Part shown: in pieces, positions 5,268-15,531 of the stretch
How positions within the stretch are numbered: the stretch's first letter is position 1
Layout of the letters: the number at the start of each line of letters is the position of its first letter
NCBI GenBank assembly: GCA_017417045.1
Contig: JAFPZZ010000011.1
Span: 1-64,000, forward strand
DNA length: 64,000 bases
Direction: 5' to 3'
DNA from: Bacillota bacterium
GTDB taxonomy: Bacteria > Bacillota > Clostridia > Peptostreptococcales > Anaerovoracaceae
Notes under the pieces: generated by a model
Told to the model about the DNA's origin: nothing
Database searches by the model: none
Seen by the model: only the letters and a program-made list of their open reading frames with translations
Program-made: the position numbers and the translations under genes

Positions 5268-6428
5268 CTAAGCCAGGATCTCGTCTGCCAGAGCCTCGAT
5301 CTGGGCCTTGTTCTCCTCGCTCATGGAGGAAAGTATGGTAACGGTGTTCTCGCAGATGGTCAGATCCTTGCATGCCGAGAGCTTGTTCCTCATGACCTTG
5401 GCGGCCATCGGGCCCCAGCTTCCGTTCTCGATGAGGCCTATCCTGCGCTTTTTGTAGCCGCGCTCCACGAGCTGATCGATGAACTGGTTCATGAAGGGGA
5501 AGATCTCTCCGTTGTAGGTAGTGGTCGCGAGGACTATGCGTCCGTGCCTGAAGGCGTCCTCGACGCACTCCGCCATATCCTCTCTTGCGAGGTCCGCGAC
5601 GACTACCCTCTCGCAGCCCTTGGCCTTGAGGGTCTCTGCCAGGCACTCGACGGCCTTCCTGGTGTTGCCATAGACCGTGGTATAGGCGATGAACACGCCC
5701 TCGGTCTCGACTCCGTAGGAGGACCAGGTATCGTAAAGCCCGATGTAGTAGGGCAGATCCTCATTCAGCACGGGTCCGTGCAGCGGGCAAATGGTCTTGA
5801 TATCGAGAGCCGCGGCTTTTTTAAGCAGGGTCTGTACAGGCATGCCGTATTTGCCGACTATGCCGAAGTAGTAGCGCCTCGCCTCGCAGGACCAGCCTTC
5901 GTCGTCGACGGCGTCCGAGGCTCCGAACTTTCCGAAGCCGTCTGCGGAGAAGAGTACCTTCTCGCTGGACTCGTAGGTGACCATTACCTCGGGCCAGTGG
6001 ACCATAGGCGCCATGATGAACGTAAGCTCATGGCTGCCGAGGCTGAGCTTCGTGCCTTCGGCCGCGACAAGCTGTCTGCCTTCGAATTCGAGGCCGTAGA
6101 AGTTCTTCATCATAGGGAAGGCCTTGGCCGTAGCGACTACGACGGCAGCCGGGTATTTCTCGGTGAAGAGCTTGATGTTGGCGGAATGGTCGGGTTCCAT
6201 ATGCTGGACTATGAGGTAGTCCGGGGTCCTGCCGTCCAGGACGGCCTCGAGCTTGCCGAGCCACTCTTCCCCGAAGCTCGCTTCTACGGTATCGAAGACC
6301 GCGATCTTCTCGTCGAGGATGACGTAGGAGTTGTACATCATCCCGTCCGGGACTATGTACTGGCCCTCGAAAAGGTCGACCTGCTTGTCGTCGACTCCGA
6401 TATATCTGATATTCTTTGAAACATCCAT
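5268..6428 (-). CDS. fprA: FprA-type flavodiiron protein
   Basis: 386 residues with an N-terminal metallo-beta-lactamase-like di-iron domain (1-245) and a C-terminal flavodoxin domain (250-386, phosphate loop TTVYGNTRKA). All six expected iron ligands are visible: H76, E78 and D80 in HMEPDH, H144 in HWPE, D163 in FSADGFG and H217 in PLHGP. These cytoplasmic enzymes reduce O2 to water and/or NO to N2O, using electrons from rubredoxin or similar donors. No rubredoxin domain is fused. The next gene block upstream encodes a nitrite reductase, so NO detoxification is a reasonable role here. Confidence 0.93.
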   Translation of the reverse strand: MDVSKNIRYIGVDDKQVDLFEGQYIVPDGMMYNSYVILDEKIAVFDTVEASFGEEWLGKLEAVLDGRTPDYLIVQHMEPDHSANIKLFTEKYPAAVVVATAKAFPMMKNFYGLEFEGRQLVAAEGTKLSLGSHELTFIMAPMVHWPEVMVTYESSEKVLFSADGFGKFGASDAVDDEGWSCEARRYYFGIVGKYGMPVQTLLKKAAALDIKTICPLHGPVLNEDLPYYIGLYDTWSSYGVETEGVFIAYTTVYGNTRKAVECLAETLKAKGCERVVVADLAREDMAECVEDAFRHGRIVLATTTYNGEIFPFMNQFIDQLVERGYKKRRIGLIENGSWGPMAAKVMRNKLSACKDLTICENTVTILSSMSEENKAQIEALADEILA

Positions 6429-6504: not shown

Positions 6505-6540
6505 TGCCTATATAAAAATGGCCCGCCTAAGCGGGCCAAA
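6505..6540 (-). terminator. terminator after ccsA
   Basis: Perfect 7-bp stem GGCCCGC/GCGGGCC (6520-6537), four-base loop, followed on the minus strand by ATTTTTATAT. A canonical intrinsic terminator closing the cytochrome maturation genes. AT-rich sequence 6440-6500 beyond it probably holds the fprA promoter (two TATAAT-like boxes), but no clear -35 box. Confidence 0.85.
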
Positions 6541-6574: not shown

Positions 6575-7390
6575 TCAGGCATAGCTGTGTATGCCCGGCA
6601 GGAAGGTGTTCACGCCTATGTAGGTGAACATGACGCAGACGAAGCCCAGCGCCGCGAAAACGGCCGCCGACCTGCCCCTCCAGCCTCCGCGTATGCGAAG
6701 GTGCAGATAAGCCGCGTAGACTATCCAGGTCACGAGAGACCAGGTCTCCTTGGGATCCCAGGACCAATAGCTTCCCCAGGCCTGTTCGGCCCAGATCGCC
6801 CCTGTCAGCATGGTGAAGCTTAGAAACAGCATGCCAAGGGATACGCTTCTGTAGCCTATCATATCCAGCATCTCGCGGTCTGGTATGTGCTCATCAAAGA
6901 AGCCTCCCCGCGTCAGCCTGTCCCGCGCAAGGAAGATGAGCGCGAGCACGAAAGAGACCCCAAACGCGCCGTAGGCTATGATGGCCGTCGAAACGTGAAA
7001 GCCCAGCCAGTTGCTCCTGAGCGAAGGCATGAGCTCCTTCACGTCCTTGCTCTGCATAGCGGCGTAGCCGATTATAAGGAACATAACCGGCGAGGAGAAG
7101 GCTCCAAGCACCGGGAATCTGAAGCGGCGTATGAATATGAGACTGACCAGGCAGAGGCCCCATGCGAAGGAGGTAGCGAACTCGTACTGATTGGTCATGG
7201 GAAGCCTTCCCGCGCCCACGCCCCTGCATATGAGGGCTGCCGTGTGCAAGGCGAATCCCGCTGCCTGCACGAGCTGCGCGGCCGGGGCGAGCTTTTCCCT
7301 TTTGAACGCCACGAAGATGAAATAGAGTATCATCGAGGCGAAATAAAGGAGCATGACTATGGTAAAGAGCGTGTTCTCAGCCTTGAGCAT
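6575..7390 (-). CDS. ccsA: cytochrome c biogenesis protein CcsA (system II)
   Basis: 271 residues with about eight membrane segments and the heme-handling motif WGSYWSWDPKETW (about residues 205-217), the WWD signature of CcsA/CcmC proteins, plus conserved His residues on outer loops. Together with Ccs1 it exports heme and attaches it to CXXCH motifs outside the membrane. It overlaps ccs1 by 14 bases, so the two are translated together. Their client is almost certainly the pentaheme NrfA encoded immediately upstream. Confidence 0.93.
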   Translation of the reverse strand: MLKAENTLFTIVMLLYFASMILYFIFVAFKREKLAPAAQLVQAAGFALHTAALICRGVGAGRLPMTNQYEFATSFAWGLCLVSLIFIRRFRFPVLGAFSSPVMFLIIGYAAMQSKDVKELMPSLRSNWLGFHVSTAIIAYGAFGVSFVLALIFLARDRLTRGGFFDEHIPDREMLDMIGYRSVSLGMLFLSFTMLTGAIWAEQAWGSYWSWDPKETWSLVTWIVYAAYLHLRIRGGWRGRSAAVFAALGFVCVMFTYIGVNTFLPGIHSYA

Positions 7391-8831
7391 GATCTTCCTC
7401 CCTTTCCGATACTGACTTTGACGGGACAGCTTCGCCTTCGCGGCCCTCGCGATCGGCGCATCCTTGCGCCGCTTCCCCTTTTGCGGCTTCCGCCGCCCTG
7501 AGGAAGCTCTCCTCGAAGATCCTTCCTCCCCTGGGGCTGCTGCCGCAGACCGTCCAGCTTCCTTCCTCCTCGTAGGCCCAGACCCTTGAGGGCTGCACGT
7601 AGAACGCGAGCGCGAGCCCGAGCAGGGTTACGATCCCTCCGGCGAAGGCCAGGCCGGTGAAGCTGTCTTTTTTGACCTGTATTAGCGTGTAGGGCCGGGG
7701 CTCCGTAAAGGTAACGACGTAATCGTCTATGATCAGCGGCTCGTCCCCGATCAGGACGTTCATGCCCAGGATCTGCCCCATGTAGTAGACGGTATAGAGA
7801 TAGGCGGGGGTCTCGATATCTTCGGCCGCTGTCTCAGGGCCCGCCGGAGCAAGGGTCGGACCGCTGTAGAAGGCGTTGTAGTATATAACCAGCTCTGGCA
7901 TGTCCTCGACCGGGACGAACTCGCCGGCGCAGAGCCAGTCCTGCTGAAGGAGCTCGCCGTTCTTCGTTATCGTGATCTTCGCTGCCCAGCCCGTGGAATT
8001 CTGATAGAACTTCATCCCGTAGAGCTTGGCGGGATGGTTGACGCTGATGGAAGCGGGGCGTCCGGAAGGCGAGCCTTCTCCTCCGCCAACGGGGCTTACT
8101 CTAATGTCCGATCTGTACTGGCTCACGCTGCCGCTGCCGCTGAGCTCTATGCGGAAATCGTCTATGCTGAGCTCGTAGCCGCTGTCGCCTACGGGCTTGG
8201 TCTGTCCGGGAACGCCGTAGACCGTGTACTCGCTCTTAGTGAACTGCCCAAGGGCGAATCCCGCTATGAGCAGGAGTATCCCGAGGTGGCAGACCCAGGC
8301 TCCCCAGAGTCCGGCGGCGTTCTTGGATGCAAACAGGCCGAGACCTTTTTTTGTTGAGGAAAGACCGGCCCGCTCATTATTCGCGGAGGAACCGCTGCCC
8401 TCTTCGGATGTCAAAAGGCCTGCGGAGGGCTCGATCTTTACCGGCTCACCCATACCGAGCTTTTTGAAAATCTGCAGAGGATCCGCGATGCCGGAGGCCG
8501 AGACCTGAGGGACGCCGTCAAATGCCCTCGCAGGGTCCTTTTCAGCCCTGTAGCGGGCCGAAAGCTGCTTCACGCGCGAAATATTGCAGAAGATCAGATC
8601 GGCGCAGAGAAAGGCGCTCAGGACTACGAAGCCGGGGCTGTGGAATATGTCGTCAAGCCCCAGCGCGATGATGAGGCCCGCGATCCTCTCGGAATAGCGG
8701 GCGGCATACCAGTCGAAGCTCTGCCCCTGCGTTATGAAGCTTCCCGCAGCGCACACCGCCGCCAGCACGACTATGATGCCTATGGCGAAGCGCATGGAAG
8801 TCAGTTTTTTTAAGAGGCTTTTTTCTTTCAT
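7377..8831 (-). CDS. ccs1: cytochrome c biogenesis protein Ccs1/ResB
   Basis: 484 residues. Three membrane segments near the N-terminus (about 12-30, 53-75, 175-195), a large extracytoplasmic domain (about 200-380) and a final membrane segment (about 393-412) fit the ResB/Ccs1 layout. A low-complexity Ser/Gly/Ala insert at about 135-165 and an acidic C-terminal tail of about 60 residues are extra. The GAAGG that could serve as ribosome site touches the ATG directly, and it lies within the T-tail of the nrfA terminator, so initiation here is odd; M13 has no better site. Confidence 0.9.
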   Translation of the reverse strand: MKEKSLLKKLTSMRFAIGIIVVLAAVCAAGSFITQGQSFDWYAARYSERIAGLIIALGLDDIFHSPGFVVLSAFLCADLIFCNISRVKQLSARYRAEKDPARAFDGVPQVSASGIADPLQIFKKLGMGEPVKIEPSAGLLTSEEGSGSSANNERAGLSSTKKGLGLFASKNAAGLWGAWVCHLGILLLIAGFALGQFTKSEYTVYGVPGQTKPVGDSGYELSIDDFRIELSGSGSVSQYRSDIRVSPVGGGEGSPSGRPASISVNHPAKLYGMKFYQNSTGWAAKITITKNGELLQQDWLCAGEFVPVEDMPELVIYYNAFYSGPTLAPAGPETAAEDIETPAYLYTVYYMGQILGMNVLIGDEPLIIDDYVVTFTEPRPYTLIQVKKDSFTGLAFAGGIVTLLGLALAFYVQPSRVWAYEEEGSWTVCGSSPRGGRIFEESFLRAAEAAKGEAAQGCADREGREGEAVPSKSVSEREEDHAQG

Positions 8832-8931: not shown

Positions 8932-10209
8932 CTACAGCAGGCTCATGGCCTCGTCTATCTTGAGTTCGGCGGTCTCGAGGCAGCTGAAGGCAAGGTCGGA
9001 GTTGTGTGCGCCCTCAGAGTTCTCGACATAGCAGTAGTCGAAGAACCACTGGGCTTCGCGGTAGAGCTTCCTCACCGCGTCGAGCTCCTCCTCGCTCTTC
9101 TCGCCCTTGCTGACGGCCTCCGCCAGCGCGTCCTTGAGCGCCGAGAGCTTGTTTCCGACCTCGGTCTCGCGCAGCGTTACCCTCTCCTGTATCCTGCGGA
9201 CCATGGCGGTCATATCGGTGTTCTCGTGGCAGGTAGCGCAGCTGAGCAGGAGCATCTCGCTCTCAAGCGGACTCACCAGAGTGTGGCTGTGATAGACGGT
9301 GCCGTCCTCGGCCTGCTCCATGGGCATGTGGCAGTCCGCGCAGGTCAGAAGGCCCGCGTGCTTGCCCTGGGTGAAGGTCTCAAACTCGGGGTGCTGAGCC
9401 TTGAGCATCTTCGTTCCCGTGCTCGGCTGTATCCAGTCGTAGAAATCGAAGGAGTCGTAGTAAGCGAGTATGGCCTCCGGAGCCATGCCTGCGGCGTCAT
9501 GATAAGGCATCATGGTCTCGCTGTCCTCCCTCGTGAAATAGTACTCTATGTGGCACTGGCCGCAGCTGAGCACCGAGGGATCGAAGCTCGATACGTTCGC
9601 GCCGAGCGCCTTGTTCACGTAGGAATGAGTGACGACGAGCTGCCCCGCGCTGCCGGCTTCGTTTCCGTGGCAGGTATAGCAGCTGATGTTCTCCTCCATG
9701 AGAGCGTAGACCTCTTCGAAGGGCATCGAATAAACCGAGACGCCCTGATCGTTCACGAGCTTCGCGAAATTGGGGGACTTGCAGGTCAGGCAGTTGGCCT
9801 TGGCGTGAGGCCTCTGCGTTTTGTATACGTCCTCGAGGGTATACTCATGCCCCCTGGCGCTGCCGTAGTCCTTAGCGAAGCCGTAGCCCTCGTAGATGTT
9901 CACGAGATAGGGATCCTGCTCGAGATAGCTCGTGACGTATACGTTTCTGGAGTTGTCCCTCATCGTAGCCGTTATGTACGGATATATCTCGGCCCAGTCG
10001 GCGGCGCTGACCGTGCCGTCGCTGCTAGTCGCCTCGGGAGCCTGCACGTCCAGATATTCGATGTCCGCGCGCGTCAGCGGTCCAAGGGCGCCCCTGTCCC
10101 GCAGGTGGTACATCACGTCCTTCCCGCCGAAGCCTCCGAGGAGGAACAGGGCCAGCGCTATGAGCAGCGCCGACAGTATGAGTTTTATCTTTTGGTTATG
10201 TCTGTCCAT
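8932..10209 (-). CDS. nrfA: ammonia-forming pentaheme cytochrome c nitrite reductase
   Basis: 425 residues. Five heme sites: C140-L-T-C143-K144 (the Lys-ligated catalytic heme typical of NrfA), then CYTCH (177), CGQCH (216), CADCH (290) and CATCH (324). Other NrfA marks are LEQDP, ARGH with R119, HIEYYF with E222/Y223, and LKAQHPE with K270, Q272, H273, matching the catalytic and calcium-site residues of the E. coli enzyme. Reduces nitrite to ammonium with six electrons, outside the membrane. Residues 8-27 form an uncleaved-looking anchor. Shorter than the roughly 480-residue E. coli enzyme. No nrfH lies nearby; it follows rnfB by 10 bases behind GAGGAG. Confidence 0.95.
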   Translation of the reverse strand: MDRHNQKIKLILSALLIALALFLLGGFGGKDVMYHLRDRGALGPLTRADIEYLDVQAPEATSSDGTVSAADWAEIYPYITATMRDNSRNVYVTSYLEQDPYLVNIYEGYGFAKDYGSARGHEYTLEDVYKTQRPHAKANCLTCKSPNFAKLVNDQGVSVYSMPFEEVYALMEENISCYTCHGNEAGSAGQLVVTHSYVNKALGANVSSFDPSVLSCGQCHIEYYFTREDSETMMPYHDAAGMAPEAILAYYDSFDFYDWIQPSTGTKMLKAQHPEFETFTQGKHAGLLTCADCHMPMEQAEDGTVYHSHTLVSPLESEMLLLSCATCHENTDMTAMVRRIQERVTLRETEVGNKLSALKDALAEAVSKGEKSEEELDAVRKLYREAQWFFDYCYVENSEGAHNSDLAFSCLETAELKIDEAMSLL

Positions 10210-10219
10210 CTTTTTCTCC

Positions 10220-11035
10220 TCAGGAGGCGGCCTCTTCAGACCGTCCCGGCGAAGGGAGCGTTATGACCTTGGCGGGGCATTTCGCCGCGCACTTGCCGCA
10301 CTGGACGCAGCTATCGTAATCGACGTGAGCGACGTTGCCTTCTACGTGAATGGCATCCGCCCCGCACTGCTTCTCGCAGAGCCCGCAGGCTATGCACCCG
10401 GCACTGCAGACCTTCCTCACGAGGGGGCCCTTGTCCTTGTTCGAGCACTGCACCCTGACGCGCTTGCGCTCCGGGACGAGCTCTATGAGGCCCTTCGGGC
10501 AGGCCTTGGCGCAGAGTCCGCAGCCTACGCATTTTCTCTCGTCAACGGCCGCTACCCCGTCCAGGACCCTTATGGCCTTCTGCGGGCATACGGAGACGCA
10601 GCTTCCCAGTCCCATGCAGCCGTAATCGCAGTCGGCGAGGTTTATACCGGCGAACAGGGCGCTCCTGCAGTCCTGAACGCCGCTGTATTCGTTCTTATGA
10701 GTTACCGCGCAGCTGCCCTTGCAGCGCACGAAAGCGACCCTTCTCTCCCCTGCTTCGGCCTCGACGCCCATTATGGCGCCGATCTTCTCGGCGACCGGGG
10801 CTCCGCCTACGGGGCAGCCGTTTACGGGGGCGGCTCCGCTGACTATGGCGGCGGCCATGGCGTCGCAGCCTGCCTGGCCGCAAGCGCCGCAGTTGTTTCC
10901 GGGAAGTTCGGCCCTGACGGCTGCTTCCCTGGGATCCACCTCTACGTAAAACTTCTTACCCGCGGTCACGAGGCCGGCGCCGACTATTATCCCGATAAGA
11001 CCTATGACCAGAGTGGTCATCAATACTACGTTCAT
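10220..11035 (-). CDS. rnfB: Rnf complex subunit RnfB (ferredoxin-type)
   Basis: 271 residues. N-terminal membrane segment (4-26), then the RnfB Fe-S domain with CGACGQAGC (49-57) and NGCPVGG, followed by four ferredoxin-like cysteine groups: CMGLGSCVSVCP, CVGCGLCAKACP, CIACGLCEKQC and CVQCGKCAAKCP. RnfB takes electrons from reduced ferredoxin into the Rnf pump. Start fixed by AAAGGAGG seven bases upstream of ATG. It is the last rnf gene; nrfA follows at once. Confidence 0.95.
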   Translation of the reverse strand: MNVVLMTTLVIGLIGIIVGAGLVTAGKKFYVEVDPREAAVRAELPGNNCGACGQAGCDAMAAAIVSGAAPVNGCPVGGAPVAEKIGAIMGVEAEAGERRVAFVRCKGSCAVTHKNEYSGVQDCRSALFAGINLADCDYGCMGLGSCVSVCPQKAIRVLDGVAAVDERKCVGCGLCAKACPKGLIELVPERKRVRVQCSNKDKGPLVRKVCSAGCIACGLCEKQCGADAIHVEGNVAHVDYDSCVQCGKCAAKCPAKVITLPSPGRSEEAAS

Positions 11036-11047
11036 GTCAGGCCTCCT

Positions 11048-11626
11048 TTAAAACGAGAGCCCGGCGAAGCCCATGAAGGCTATCGACATGAGGGCGGCGG
11101 AGATGAGGACTATGGGGGCGCCCCTGAGGGGCTCGGGGATGTCCTCTTCGCGCATGCGCGAACGTATGCTGGCTAGCAGCACTATGGCTATGGTATAGCC
11201 GAGCGCGGTGCCGAAACCAGAGAGCACGCTCTGCACGAAGTTGTATCCGTTCTGCACGTTGGTAAGGGCCACGCCGAGCACGGCGCAGTTGGTGGTTATC
11301 AACGGCAGGAATATTCCCAGCGCCTTGTATATGGCGGGGGAACTCTTTTTGAGGAACATCTCGACTATCTGCACCAGGGCCGCGATGACCAGTATGAAGA
11401 CTATGGTCTTCATGTAGTCGAGCCCGAAGGGGTCCAGCACGTAGGTGTATACGAGGTTCGCGACGCCGGAGGCTATGGTTATGACGAATATGACCGCGCC
11501 TCCGAGGCTGGCCGAGGCCTTCATCTGCTGGGAAACGCCGAGGAATGAGCAGATCCCTAGGAACTGGTTGAGGACGACGTTGTTTATCAGCGCTCCTCCT
11601 ATGATCAGAAGTATCATTTCCTTCAT
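11048..11626 (-). CDS. rnfA: Rnf complex membrane subunit RnfA
   Basis: 192 residues, six membrane segments, with family stretches NNVVLNQFLGICSFLGVS at the N-terminus and LITTNCAVLGVALTN near 110-125. The two Cys residues (in GICSF and TNCAV) correspond to the membrane-embedded [2Fe-2S] ligands shared with RnfE/NqrDE. Overlaps the rnfE stop by one base, so translation is coupled. Confidence 0.95.
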   Translation of the reverse strand: MKEMILLIIGGALINNVVLNQFLGICSFLGVSQQMKASASLGGAVIFVITIASGVANLVYTYVLDPFGLDYMKTIVFILVIAALVQIVEMFLKKSSPAIYKALGIFLPLITTNCAVLGVALTNVQNGYNFVQSVLSGFGTALGYTIAIVLLASIRSRMREEDIPEPLRGAPIVLISAALMSIAFMGFAGLSF

Positions 11627-12339
11627 CAGATCTGTGCCTCCTTTCTTGCCTCAGCGGGATCCGGTGCGGACTCGTCCTTGTTCTCGCAGGGGCTCATGCA
11701 GGCGCTGCAGCAGCCGTCGCAGCCGCTCTCAACGAGCTGCCTCTGGCGGGTCTTTATGCCTATGGCGTTCATGATCGTAACGAACAGCGCTATGACCAGG
11801 AAGGCTCCTGGGGGCTGCACGAAGATCCCTATGGGCTCGAAGCCGTCGGGGAGCACGTTCACTCCGAACACGCTGCCGTTTCCAAGAAGCTCCCTCACGA
11901 AGCCGGCCAGGGTCAGGGCTAGCGTGAAGCCCAGTCCCATCCCGAGACCGTCCATGACCGAGAGCAGCGGGCCGTTCTTGTTGGCGTAGGCCTCTGCCCT
12001 TCCGAGTATTATGCAGTTTACTACGATGAGAGGGATGTATATTCCAAGCGCGCTGTAGAGCGAGGGAAGATAGCCCTCTATCAGAAGCTCCGTCACCGTG
12101 ACGAGCGAGGCCACTATGACTATGTAGGACGGAAGCCTCACCTCGTCGGGTATGACTTTTCTTAGCAGCGATATGATCAGATTGGAGAGGATCAGCACCG
12201 CCGTCGTAGAGAGTCCCATGCCTATGCCGTTCATGGCCCTCGTGGAGACGGCCAGGGTCGGGCACATTCCGAGCATGAGCATCAGGGTCGGGTTCTCTTT
12301 GATCAGTCCGTTGTACAGGCGTTCAACATATTTGTTCAA
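11626..12339 (-). CDS. rnfE: Rnf complex membrane subunit RnfE with Cys-rich tail
   Basis: 237 residues. About 200 residues are a standard six-helix RnfE: ENPTLMLMLGMCPTLAVS at the start and IVVNCIILGRAEAYA near 105-120, each with the Cys expected to bind the shared iron-sulfur cluster. The last 35 residues are hydrophilic and begin with GCDGCCSACMSPC, five cysteines in CxxCCxxCxxxC spacing, presumably in the cytoplasm. Lies one base after rnfDG and overlaps rnfA by one base. Confidence 0.94.
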   Translation of the reverse strand: MNKYVERLYNGLIKENPTLMLMLGMCPTLAVSTRAMNGIGMGLSTTAVLILSNLIISLLRKVIPDEVRLPSYIVIVASLVTVTELLIEGYLPSLYSALGIYIPLIVVNCIILGRAEAYANKNGPLLSVMDGLGMGLGFTLALTLAGFVRELLGNGSVFGVNVLPDGFEPIGIFVQPPGAFLVIALFVTIMNAIGIKTRQRQLVESGCDGCCSACMSPCENKDESAPDPAEARKEAQI

Positions 12340-12340
12340 A

Positions 12341-13906
12341 TCAGTTCCCTCCCTTCATGTAGTTTCTGAAGAAGTCGAGGGCCGCGTTCACGGCTCCGAC
12401 CACGGCGCCCGAGGTCGTGCTGGCACCGGAGACGGTATCTATGGAGTTATCGCCGCCTGATGACGAGCCCTTGTTGAGGACGAAGCTGTCGACCTTCCTG
12501 CCGTTGAACTGATCCCTGAATTCGGGTTCTCCGGCCCTCATGCCCATTCCGGGCGTCTCGTTCAGATGCGTGAAGGCTATGCTGATCACGGTACCGTCGG
12601 GCTCTAGTCCTACCGTCAGAGTTATGTTGCCGTCGTAGCCGTCCATGCTGGTCACGTTGACCACGTAGCCGGCGATATTCCCGGAGGCGTCTTTCCCGAC
12701 ATAAGCTTCGTTTATGTAAACTCTTCCAAAGCCCTTGCCGTAGACCTCTCCGTCCAGATCCTCGATCGCGAGATCCGCCTTTTCGACGTTCTCAAAGCTC
12801 TCCGCGGCGGGGAGCACGTTTTTGTATGAAGCCAGGCTGGCCAGCCTCTTCTGCTCGTCTATGGCGTCCTTGGTCAGGGAGTATACCCCTCCGAGGGCGA
12901 CGCCGGCGAGCACGGTGATCAGCGTGAGGGTGATCACAGGCTTGGGCACGCTCAGGCCCGTCTTATCTCCGTTTCTCGCGGCTACCGCGCTCTTTCTGTA
13001 GGCGTAGGGCTTTGGCACTACGTACATGTCGAGCAGCGGGGTGAAGAGGTTGCCTATGATTATGGCGTAGCTAAAGGAGTCGCCGGAGCCCGCTATCCTA
13101 AACAGCGCGCCGAGGCAGCCTATTATGCAGCCGTATATCACCTGGGCGGTCCTGCCGCTGGGCGAAGTCGTGTAGTCGGTGGCCATGAAGAGAGCGCCCA
13201 TCATGAGGCCGCCTCCGCAAAGATGCGCCGCGAGGAAGCGCAGGTCGAAGCCCTGCCCTCCGAAGAGCAGCATCATGAGCGAGAAGCTGACTATGACCGA
13301 AGTGCTTATCGGGGTGTGGATTATATCCAGGGACCAGAGGAAGAGCCCTCCTATGATAAGGGCGAGTATGGATCCTCCTATGAGGCTGTTCGAGGAGCCG
13401 AGGAACATCTTTGTGATGTTGACGGCCTTGCCTCCCTTGAGCAGCGCTAGAGGAGTGGCGGAAGAGACTCCGTCCACGTCGAATCTCGTCATGCTGGCTC
13501 CGAAGGAGATCAGCAGGAAGCAGCGCCCCGCGAGGGCGGGATTGATGAAGTTCTTTCCGAGTCCTCCGAAGCTGCATTTCGCTACGACTATGGCGAATAT
13601 CGCTCCAAGCACCGGCTGGTATAGCGGGACCTCGTTGGAAAGGCTGAGCCCGAGCAGCAGGCCGGTGACGACCGCGCTGCTGTCCTTTATGGTGCTCGGC
13701 TTATGGCAGGCCAGATCGAAGAGGTATTCGCTGAGCACAGCCGAGCCTATGCAGAGCGTGAGTATGATCAGGGCCCTTATGCCGTTGAAATACACTCCCG
13801 CGATAGTCGCCGGCATGAGGGATATGCATACCAGCTTCATTATCGAAGCTGTGTCGTGCCTGTCCCTGAAATGCGGGCCGGAAGAAAGTCTGAATGTATT
13901 GCTCAT
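12341..13906 (-). CDS. rnfDG: fused Rnf subunits RnfD-RnfG
   Basis: 521 residues in one uninterrupted frame. Residues 1-300 are RnfD: many membrane helices and the flavinylation site DGVSSATPLA with Thr151. After a short basic linker (301-318) comes RnfG: one membrane helix (322-343), then the extracytoplasmic FMN domain with ETPGMGM (450-456) and the flavinylation motif TVSGASTTSG (491-500). Both halves should carry covalent FMN on the outer side. In known rnf operons rnfD and rnfG are adjacent separate genes, so the fusion is a natural one, but unusual. Overlaps rnfC by four bases. Confidence 0.93.
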   Translation of the reverse strand: MSNTFRLSSGPHFRDRHDTASIMKLVCISLMPATIAGVYFNGIRALIILTLCIGSAVLSEYLFDLACHKPSTIKDSSAVVTGLLLGLSLSNEVPLYQPVLGAIFAIVVAKCSFGGLGKNFINPALAGRCFLLISFGASMTRFDVDGVSSATPLALLKGGKAVNITKMFLGSSNSLIGGSILALIIGGLFLWSLDIIHTPISTSVIVSFSLMMLLFGGQGFDLRFLAAHLCGGGLMMGALFMATDYTTSPSGRTAQVIYGCIIGCLGALFRIAGSGDSFSYAIIIGNLFTPLLDMYVVPKPYAYRKSAVAARNGDKTGLSVPKPVITLTLITVLAGVALGGVYSLTKDAIDEQKRLASLASYKNVLPAAESFENVEKADLAIEDLDGEVYGKGFGRVYINEAYVGKDASGNIAGYVVNVTSMDGYDGNITLTVGLEPDGTVISIAFTHLNETPGMGMRAGEPEFRDQFNGRKVDSFVLNKGSSSGGDNSIDTVSGASTTSGAVVGAVNAALDFFRNYMKGGN

Positions 13907-15255
13907 TTCTTCCCTCCCGCGGCTTCAGCGCGCTTCTTGGCGAGTATCTCCGCCTTCATGAGTTTAAATGTCTGCGTGAGAGGCCTCTTGGCCGGGCATA
14001 TGTAGCTGCACGAGCCGCAGAAGAAGCACTCGAGTCCGTAGAGCTTCTTTTCGTAGCGCTCCCAATCCCCGTTCTCCGCGGCCTCCATCATCATCATGGG
14101 CATGAGCCCGTTGGGGCAGACCGAACCGCAGCGTCCGCAGCTTATGCAGGGATCGTACTTTCCGTCCTTCCCTTCGTCCGGGTCCACGGAGAGTATGGTG
14201 AGGGCGTTGGTGGTCTTGACCACGGGAACGTCCAGCGAAGCCACCGCGACGCCCATCATTGGGCCTCCCGCGAGCGCTTTCTTTGGCTCCGCGCCTTCCT
14301 TAAGGCCACCGGCCTCCTCGAGCAGAGCCGAGAAGGGAGTGCCGTCGCGGACTATCAGGTTGCAGGGGGAGACCACGTCCTCGCCGCTAACGGTCAGAAC
14401 GTGTCTGAACAGCGGCTCATTGAAGGCTACGGCCCTGTAAGAGGCGTATATGGTCCCGACATTGCAGACTATGCAGCCCACGTCGGCGGGAAGCATCGAA
14501 GCGGGATAATCTATCCCTGCGACTGCCTTGATGAGGCTGCGCTCTCCGCCCTGCGGATACTTGGTCTTCATGGGCATGACGACTATCCCTTCGTGCGAAG
14601 CGGCGGCTACCTTCATGGCCGCTATGGCCTCGGGCTTGTTGTCCTCTATCGCGACGACGCCCTTAGCGTTCGGGAAGAGCCTGAGCATGAGCTCCATGCC
14701 CTTTACGATCTCCTCCGGGCAGCTCCTCATGAGCTGGTCGTTGCAGCAAAGATAGGGCTCGCATTCGGCACCGTTGGCTATGAGGTATCTGATGGCCGAG
14801 GGATCCTTGGGGCTGAGCTTGACCCTGGTCGGGAAGCCCGCTCCGCCGAGGCCTATGACGCCGGCGTCTGCGATCTTTTTGAGTATCTCCTCGCCGCTCA
14901 GGGCGTAGACGTCGCATTCCTCCCCTACTCCGGGCAGCAGCTCAAAAAGCCCGTCGCCGTCGACGACCACGCATTCCTGAATGGTGCCGGCGATGGTCCT
15001 TCGCTTTTCTATTGCCTTGACTGTGCCAGAACACGAACAGATGACGTTTGCCGACACGAATCCGTCGGCCTCGCCTATGCACTGGCCCGCCAGTACGCGG
15101 TCGCCCTTGCTTACGATGACCTTGGCCGGCTTTCCGATGTGCTGAGCAAGGGGAAAGACCATCTCCCCCGTCCAGTCGAAAGCCCTCAGCGGCGATGAGC
15201 GGCTGAGATCCTTATGATCCTGAGGATGGACCCCGCCGCGGAACAATTCTTTCAA
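13903..15255 (-). CDS. rnfC: Rnf complex subunit RnfC
   Basis: 450 residues from a TTG start at 15253-15255, chosen because GGAGG lies exactly six bases upstream and the family N-terminus (KELFRGGVHPQDHK) then begins at residue 2; an earlier in-frame TTG at 15288 has no ribosome site. Domains: barrel-sandwich region, the NADH/FMN-binding Complex I 51-kDa-like domain (GLGGAGFPTRVKL, GAECEPYL), SLBB-like region and two [4Fe-4S] motifs CISCGRCGSVCP and CFFCGSCSYICP. It exchanges electrons with NAD on the cytoplasmic face. First gene of the operon. Confidence 0.94.
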   Translation of the reverse strand: MKELFRGGVHPQDHKDLSRSSPLRAFDWTGEMVFPLAQHIGKPAKVIVSKGDRVLAGQCIGEADGFVSANVICSCSGTVKAIEKRRTIAGTIQECVVVDGDGLFELLPGVGEECDVYALSGEEILKKIADAGVIGLGGAGFPTRVKLSPKDPSAIRYLIANGAECEPYLCCNDQLMRSCPEEIVKGMELMLRLFPNAKGVVAIEDNKPEAIAAMKVAAASHEGIVVMPMKTKYPQGGERSLIKAVAGIDYPASMLPADVGCIVCNVGTIYASYRAVAFNEPLFRHVLTVSGEDVVSPCNLIVRDGTPFSALLEEAGGLKEGAEPKKALAGGPMMGVAVASLDVPVVKTTNALTILSVDPDEGKDGKYDPCISCGRCGSVCPNGLMPMMMMEAAENGDWERYEKKLYGLECFFCGSCSYICPAKRPLTQTFKLMKAEILAKKRAEAAGGKK

Positions 15256-15307
15256 AGCGAGCCTCCATATGTTGAATATAGAAAACAAAATGCTATGCGA
15301 TCATAAA

Positions 15308-15389: not shown

Positions 15390-15441
15390 TTGAATTATTT
15401 ACGCTTTATCATCATTTGAATAATTTACGCTTTATCATCAT
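15390..15441. repeat. two tandem 26-bp direct repeats
   Basis: Copies at 15390-15415 and 15416-15441 differ at a single base. Each contains TTTACGCTTTATCATCAT. They lie in the divergent gap between rnfC and the MATE gene, upstream of a TATACT box (15461-15466) that could be the MATE -10, and may be paired regulator sites. Confidence 0.85.
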
Positions 15442-15531
15442 ACAGGACGCGCTTTGGGTGTATACTGTTTGCCGCGGACGCCGTCCTGGCGGGGTGAAGC
15501 TGCAGGCTTATCGTCAGCCCCTTCCGCTTAA

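Follow-up and report, generated by a model that had tools for sequence, protein, structure and literature searches.

A single-chain RnfD-RnfG protein in a complete Rnf operon that adjoins genes for a nitrite reductase and for cytochrome c maturation

Rnf complexes, the nitrite reductase NrfA, multi-flavinylated forms of RnfG and links between Rnf and multiheme cytochromes are all known already. Electrons enter Rnf from ferredoxin; RnfB relays them to the 2Fe-2S cluster located between RnfA and RnfE, which hands them to the FMN of RnfG at the outer face of the membrane; from there they travel to the flavins of RnfD, to RnfC and finally to NAD+, with RnfG shuttling between RnfA/E and RnfD (PMC11889175, PMC12174285). 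The swing of RnfG between these partners is thought to cover about 35 Å (PMC12174285). In the structure from Acetobacterium woodii RnfG contacts mainly RnfA/E and the helix of RnfB, RnfD only slightly, and the loose C-terminus of RnfD docks into RnfC (PMC11889175).

Several described systems resemble the locus that is discussed here. The Rnf complexes of A. woodii (9ERI) and Clostridium tetanomorphum (7ZC6) have the same six subunit types and the same cofactor motifs; their RnfD and RnfG, however, are separate chains, and their operon lacks NrfA. The Rnf of Methanosarcina acetivorans is believed to deliver electrons to MmcA, a multiheme cytochrome of the c type on the extracytoplasmic side (PMC12174285, PMC11024163). 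MmcA carries them onward to methanophenazine or to outside acceptors, whereas at our locus the cytochrome is itself the terminal nitrite reductase and RnfD is joined to RnfG. For Christensenellales with multi-flavinylated or multiheme RnfG, Rnf was likewise proposed to branch electrons outward via RnfG, but there the extra FMN or heme domains sit on RnfG, a fusion with RnfD is absent and no nitrite reductase was named for Rnf (PMC8238504). The two-subunit NQR/RNF-like systems combine a membrane domain of the RnfD/NqrB type with an FMN domain of the RnfG/NqrC type (PMC8238504, PMC11334425). In these, an NAD-binding domain is attached to the RnfD-like one, which lacks the flavinylation site; here, in contrast, RnfD is fused to RnfG, the site is kept and the full Rnf set is present. 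The NrfA-NrfH systems, finally, share the pentaheme NrfA with a CXXCK catalytic heme; our NrfA differs by a conserved N-terminal stretch of about 50 residues and by the lack of a detectable NrfH quinol dehydrogenase in its genome.

The window, i.e., the whole stretch of DNA analysed, comprises 64,000 nucleotides of contig JAFPZZ010000011.1 from a member of the Anaerovoracaceae (assembly GCA_017417045.1). On its minus strand the genes follow each other in the order rnfC-rnfDG-rnfE-rnfA-rnfB-nrfA-resB-ccsA (Table 1). Up to nrfA they overlap or leave gaps of no more than about 12 bases; nrfA and resB are about 100 bases apart. The strong terminator-like hairpin behind ccsA likely marks the end of the operon. 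Still further 3', at 5268-6428 of the same strand, lies the gene of a flavodiiron-type protein with an ODP beta-lactamase and a flavodoxin domain and with promoter-like sites of its own. Flavodiiron-type proteins can reduce NO or O2.

Table 1. Position and characteristics of the features of the rnf-nrfA region in the window
Feature	Position	Strand	Characteristics
terminator-like hairpin	6519-6538	minus	8 pairs, 7 of them G-C, followed by T5; 3' of ccsA
ccsA/ccsB	6575-7390	minus	cytochrome c maturation system II
resB (Ccs1)	7377-8831	minus	cytochrome c maturation system II
nrfA	8932-10209	minus	ammonia-forming cytochrome c nitrite reductase; CXXCK and four CXXCH; N-terminal membrane anchor or signal
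rnfB	10220-11035	minus	271 aa; membrane helix and polyferredoxin
rnfA	11048-11626	minus	192 aa
rnfE	11626-12339	minus	237 aa; TTG start
rnfDG	12341-13906	minus	single chain: RnfD 1-301, linker about 302-322, RnfG 325-521; predicted FMN at Thr151 and Ser496
rnfC	13903-15288	minus	461 aa; TTG start; intact flavin/NAD loop (GLGGAGFPT) and two intact 4Fe-4S motifs
weak promoter-like site	15437-15464	minus	upstream of rnfC; 9/12, near chance level

In the list of open reading frames rnfDG is a single unbroken frame of 521 codons. That it holds both RnfD and RnfG had been claimed in a sequence-only reading of the window and is borne out by curated subunit profiles: TIGR01946 (rnfD) of NCBIfam matches residues 11-301 with 230.8 bits (cut-off 207) and TIGR01947 (rnfG) residues 325-514 with 110.8 bits (cut-off 102). 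The extent of the latter match implies that the RnfG half is whole, its membrane helix included. The Pfam domains are PF03116 at residues 7-301 (305 bits) and PF04205, FMN_bind, at residues 423-511 (63 bits). In a comparison with the sequences of solved structures, residues 4-305 correspond to RnfD chains and residues 325-520 to RnfG chains; the RnfD part aligns over its full length with 7zc6_D and 9eri_D, the RnfG part with 9eri_G and 7zc6_G. For the whole chain, AlphaFold gave a model of moderate confidence (mean pLDDT 72). Its halves, matched separately, yield a TM score (by target length) of 0.84 against solved RnfD and of 0.72-0.76 against solved RnfG.

Such a gene might be an assembly error, hide a missed stop codon or give rise to two proteins by means of an internal start. 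Most of the genomes concerned are drafts, and the linker of L016 indeed contains an in-frame ATG with AGGA upstream. The same fusion, however, is present in 24 other genomes or contigs. The 25 genes, each from a separate genome, are that of the window, those of a second species of its genus (G005) and of a second genus of its family (G074), those of the 20 named contigs L024-L043, and G677 and G495. None of the 25 has an internal stop. Their linkers can be aligned and vary in length, from about 19 to 29 residues in the main clade and more in L042 and L104. In three pairs of relatives the linker has a pN/pS of 0.09-0.25, similar to that of the flanking domains; a fourth pair was too alike to be informative. 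A conserved internal start was not found among the 25 genes, and the sole ATG near the junction in the window falls within the end of RnfD and lacks a ribosome-binding site. Because 25 genes are free of stops and purifying selection acts along the linker, a missed stop or a frameshift between the halves, which the first reading had named as its own refutation, is effectively excluded. The chance that any of these artefacts explains the locus is negligible, and the fusion is confirmed as a genuine one.

The fused chain has both motifs for flavinylation by ApbE, and a single ApbE gene occurs in the genome, on a different contig. Thr151, rightly picked out before as the site of the RnfD half, belongs to the motif D145-G-V-S-S-A-T151. 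For the RnfG half, SGAST at 493-497 had been given; the motif exists, but this span ends one residue too late. D490-T-V-S-G-A-S496 matches exactly the published ApbE rule, D-x-x-[S/T]-G-A-[S/T], in which serine is accepted less well than threonine (PMC12052999), and according to this rule the acceptor is Ser496. The other fused RnfG halves have serine or threonine at this position.

The proposed topology, with the C-terminus of RnfD and the N-terminus of RnfG inside and the FMN domain outside, fits both halves and agrees with the cytoplasmic linker assumed at the outset. That the linker is basic is true for the window's protein (net charge +4), but not for fusions in general (-2 to +8 among the 25). 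A short cytoplasmic linker ties the RnfG helix, which anchors the mobile FMN domain in the membrane, at its cytoplasmic end to the final helix of RnfD. Since in A. woodii the C-terminus of RnfD docks into RnfC, the linker must replace or bypass this contact. RnfD and RnfG are already present at a ratio of 1:1 in solved Rnf complexes. The fusion therefore leaves the stoichiometry unchanged, and a 1:1 ratio "by design", as had been suggested, is no gain.

The fusion is not a trait of the whole clade, a case that the first reading had named as a further ground for refutation. In the family sample it was seen in 3 of 248 genomes, 181 of which gave some match to the fused profile; in the order sample it was confined to the window's genome, and in the phylum sample to this genome, G677 and G495. 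Clade-wide occurrence is thus rejected. It does occur in some gut and rumen Clostridia. In many unfused relatives, e.g., G268, G257 and G314, rnfD and rnfG lie side by side in one reading frame with just one stop codon between them. A change of this one codon would fuse the two, a small step; probably, the fusion came about through the loss of this stop. In a tree of the D domain, 22 of the 25 fusions group together behind a branch supported at 100/99. Within this main fused clade of a wider, quick tree, only L044 does not read as fused, and there the contig ends directly after the RnfD part. The pair L042 and L104 (Lachnospiraceae) branches nearby among unfused sequences; by its position it may be of separate origin, yet in an AU test (p 0.25) its union with the main clade was not rejected. 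L105 is distant and adjoins, with support, RnfD of the Halanaerobium and Omnitrophota types, a placement that marks its fusion as independent and leads us to reject a single origin of all fusions. With L105 far away and the union of L042 and L104 with the main clade not rejected, the fusion arose at least twice, i.e., in two or three events.

Otherwise, the complex is a complete Rnf. All six subunits (A, B, C, D, E, G) are co-encoded and exceed the NCBIfam subfamily cut-offs; D and G form a single chain instead of two in all 25 genes, and the subunit set is unchanged. An identity as Na+-NQR was rejected: nqrB scored 121 (cut-off 350) and nqrC 45 (cut-off 144), and RnfC and RnfB are present in place of NqrA and NqrF. 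The two-subunit NQR/RNF-like type was equally rejected, as the fused chain has no PF00175 NAD-binding domain. RnfC of the window keeps the flavin/NAD loop and two 4Fe-4S motifs. The loop is kept in every fused member examined except G074, and NAD+ reduction is thus probably retained. In G074 (L015:986-2347 and 182-967) the RnfC of the fused, NrfA-linked operon lacks GLGGAGFPT, and a divergent Crp/Fnr-type regulator lies upstream. As L015 is the only such case among fused members, we reject a lost NAD site as a sign of rerouting in general.

The genome also harbours a second Rnf, which is not fused (L021:10912-15072, contig C58). Its ApbE motifs are degenerate both in RnfD (TSGDTPL) and in RnfG (ADEAS), its RnfC lacks the GLGGAGFPT loop and its RnfG has no Pfam match. 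RnfD and RnfG of G002 (L114) likewise lack the ApbE motif pattern; both motifs are retained in G001 and G004, which belong to the genus. An ApbE gene was found in three of the six genomes of the genus (G000, G004, G005). G001, which has the Rnf flavinylation motifs, gave no ApbE match, perhaps due to its completeness of 86%. RnfG-type proteins of 371 to 879 residues with at least two FMN-binding-like regions were seen in L018 (9243-10355), L019 (9107-10219), L060 and L098. They adjoin an unfused RnfD and resemble the multi-flavinylated RnfGs described before (PMC8238504).

The NrfA of the operon matches PF02335 with 271.6 bits and aligns with 3ubr and 1gu6. Its CXXCK and four CXXCH motifs are invariant in nine relatives. 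The N-terminus is hydrophobic and precedes the conserved stretch of about 50 residues, which is followed by the part alignable to solved NrfA. With 224 bits for NF008339 (cut-off 595) and 186 for TIGR03152 (cut-off 692), the protein stays below both equivalog cut-offs and is therefore a divergent member. Its predicted fold was too poor to use (pLDDT 47).

The eight-gene rnf-nrfA-resB-ccsA module is found again, complete or truncated where the contig stops, in ten other members of the fused clade, G074 and L024-L032. In the flanks of these 11 operons no further gene is common to the contigs. The nrfA-linked members form one clade with support 100/99 if G005 is counted in, which falls within or beside it and has an ApbE-matching frame 3' of its fused operon. 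Fused operons that do not belong to this group gave no NrfA match 3' of rnfB; the contigs of L033, L034 and L044 end too early to judge. Many fused operons are thus devoid of nrfA. The fusion is more widely distributed than the link to nrfA, and we reject the idea that the fusion itself is an adaptation to NrfA.

What, then, reduces NrfA? NrfH (PF03264) was not matched in the window's genome, nor in 16 other genomes tested, nine of them NrfA-linked; MqnA/MqnD and MenD were not found in the window's genome. The latter is 96.5% complete, so that a donor may have been missed. In three other genera of the family (L126-L137) resB and ccsA stand behind an NrfA of a different type, and rnf genes are missing from its vicinity. 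Seven genomes of the family, with either the rnf-free or the NrfA-linked arrangement, were tested and none has NrfH. As the relatives with nrfA-resB-ccsA distant from rnf also lack it, NrfA in this family can evidently work without adjacent rnf, perhaps with another donor.

We propose the following sequence of events. ApbE would attach FMN to Thr151 of the RnfD part and to Ser496 of the RnfG part. Electrons from ferredoxin would pass via RnfB and the iron-sulfur cluster of RnfA/E to the FMN of the RnfG part, and this flow would drive export of Na+ or H+, as in other Rnf complexes. From the FMN they could proceed through the RnfD part and RnfC to NAD+ and/or reach the membrane-anchored pentaheme NrfA, which would convert nitrite to ammonium without quinone or NrfH. 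Direct transfer to NrfA is proposed because neither NrfH nor MqnA/MqnD or MenD was detected and the FMN of RnfG is the remaining extracytoplasmic donor beside nrfA. The pump adjoining nrfA suggests that electrons are handed straight to nitrite; if the RnfG part touches NrfA and reduces it, this would have its analogue in the Rnf-multiheme cytochrome link of M. acetivorans (PMC12174285). That a single-chain RnfDG works within a complete Rnf and delivers electrons to NAD+ and/or directly to NrfA, compatible with normal Rnf function, we hold to be somewhat probable. The more demanding version, a quinone-free respiratory chain in one module, in which the fused Rnf oxidises ferredoxin, exports ions and directly reduces the anchored NrfA by its FMN, is an evenly balanced matter.

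The fusion may also be neutral, a mere loss of a stop codon in an ordinary ferredoxin:NAD+ Rnf, with the co-expressed nrfA being fed from elsewhere, e.g., by a soluble flavoprotein or by a membrane cytochrome that escaped recognition. The intact RnfC would be in line with this, as would the relatives in which a single stop parts the in-frame rnfD and rnfG, the nrfA-resB-ccsA clusters without adjacent rnf and a fusion that extends beyond the nrfA link. Yet the rnf-nrfA module stays together in 11 operons despite unlike flanks, and no NrfH or quinone-pathway marker turned up; we consider neutrality rather unlikely. Distinctly improbable is a wire from NADH to nitrite, in which RnfC and the RnfD part would feed the tethered FMN of RnfG, the RnfB/A/E half working separately. 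The two parts joined by the fusion are precisely those that carry flavin in the RnfC-RnfD-RnfG half, and a one-way path of this kind was proposed for the two-subunit NQR/RNF-like systems (PMC8238504, PMC11334425). But RnfA, RnfE and RnfB are all retained in the operon and are among the best-conserved subunits, and this path would skip the presumed ion-pumping step. The transfer from ferredoxin through the fused Rnf to NAD+ and/or NrfA remains the preferred reading.

In the open-access literature searched, neither an RnfD-RnfG fusion nor an Rnf-NrfA operon was found to be described; there was no sign in it that the fusion is already catalogued, although silence of this kind weighs little. The sequence-only reading had missed the clade of fused Rnf and its two or more origins, the operon with nrfA and cytochrome c maturation genes, and the second, unfused Rnf.

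The fusion amounts to a natural experiment on the mechanism of Rnf and Nqr. With the anchor of RnfG tied to RnfD by only about 20-30 residues in the main clade, it tests how far RnfG must move. If the link to NrfA is functional, it would explain how quinone-less gut anaerobes could respire nitrite without NrfH; Clostridia of rumen and gut that lack both quinones and NrfH would then conserve energy by nitrite ammonification, and this would bear on nitrite removal in the rumen and on the control of methane.
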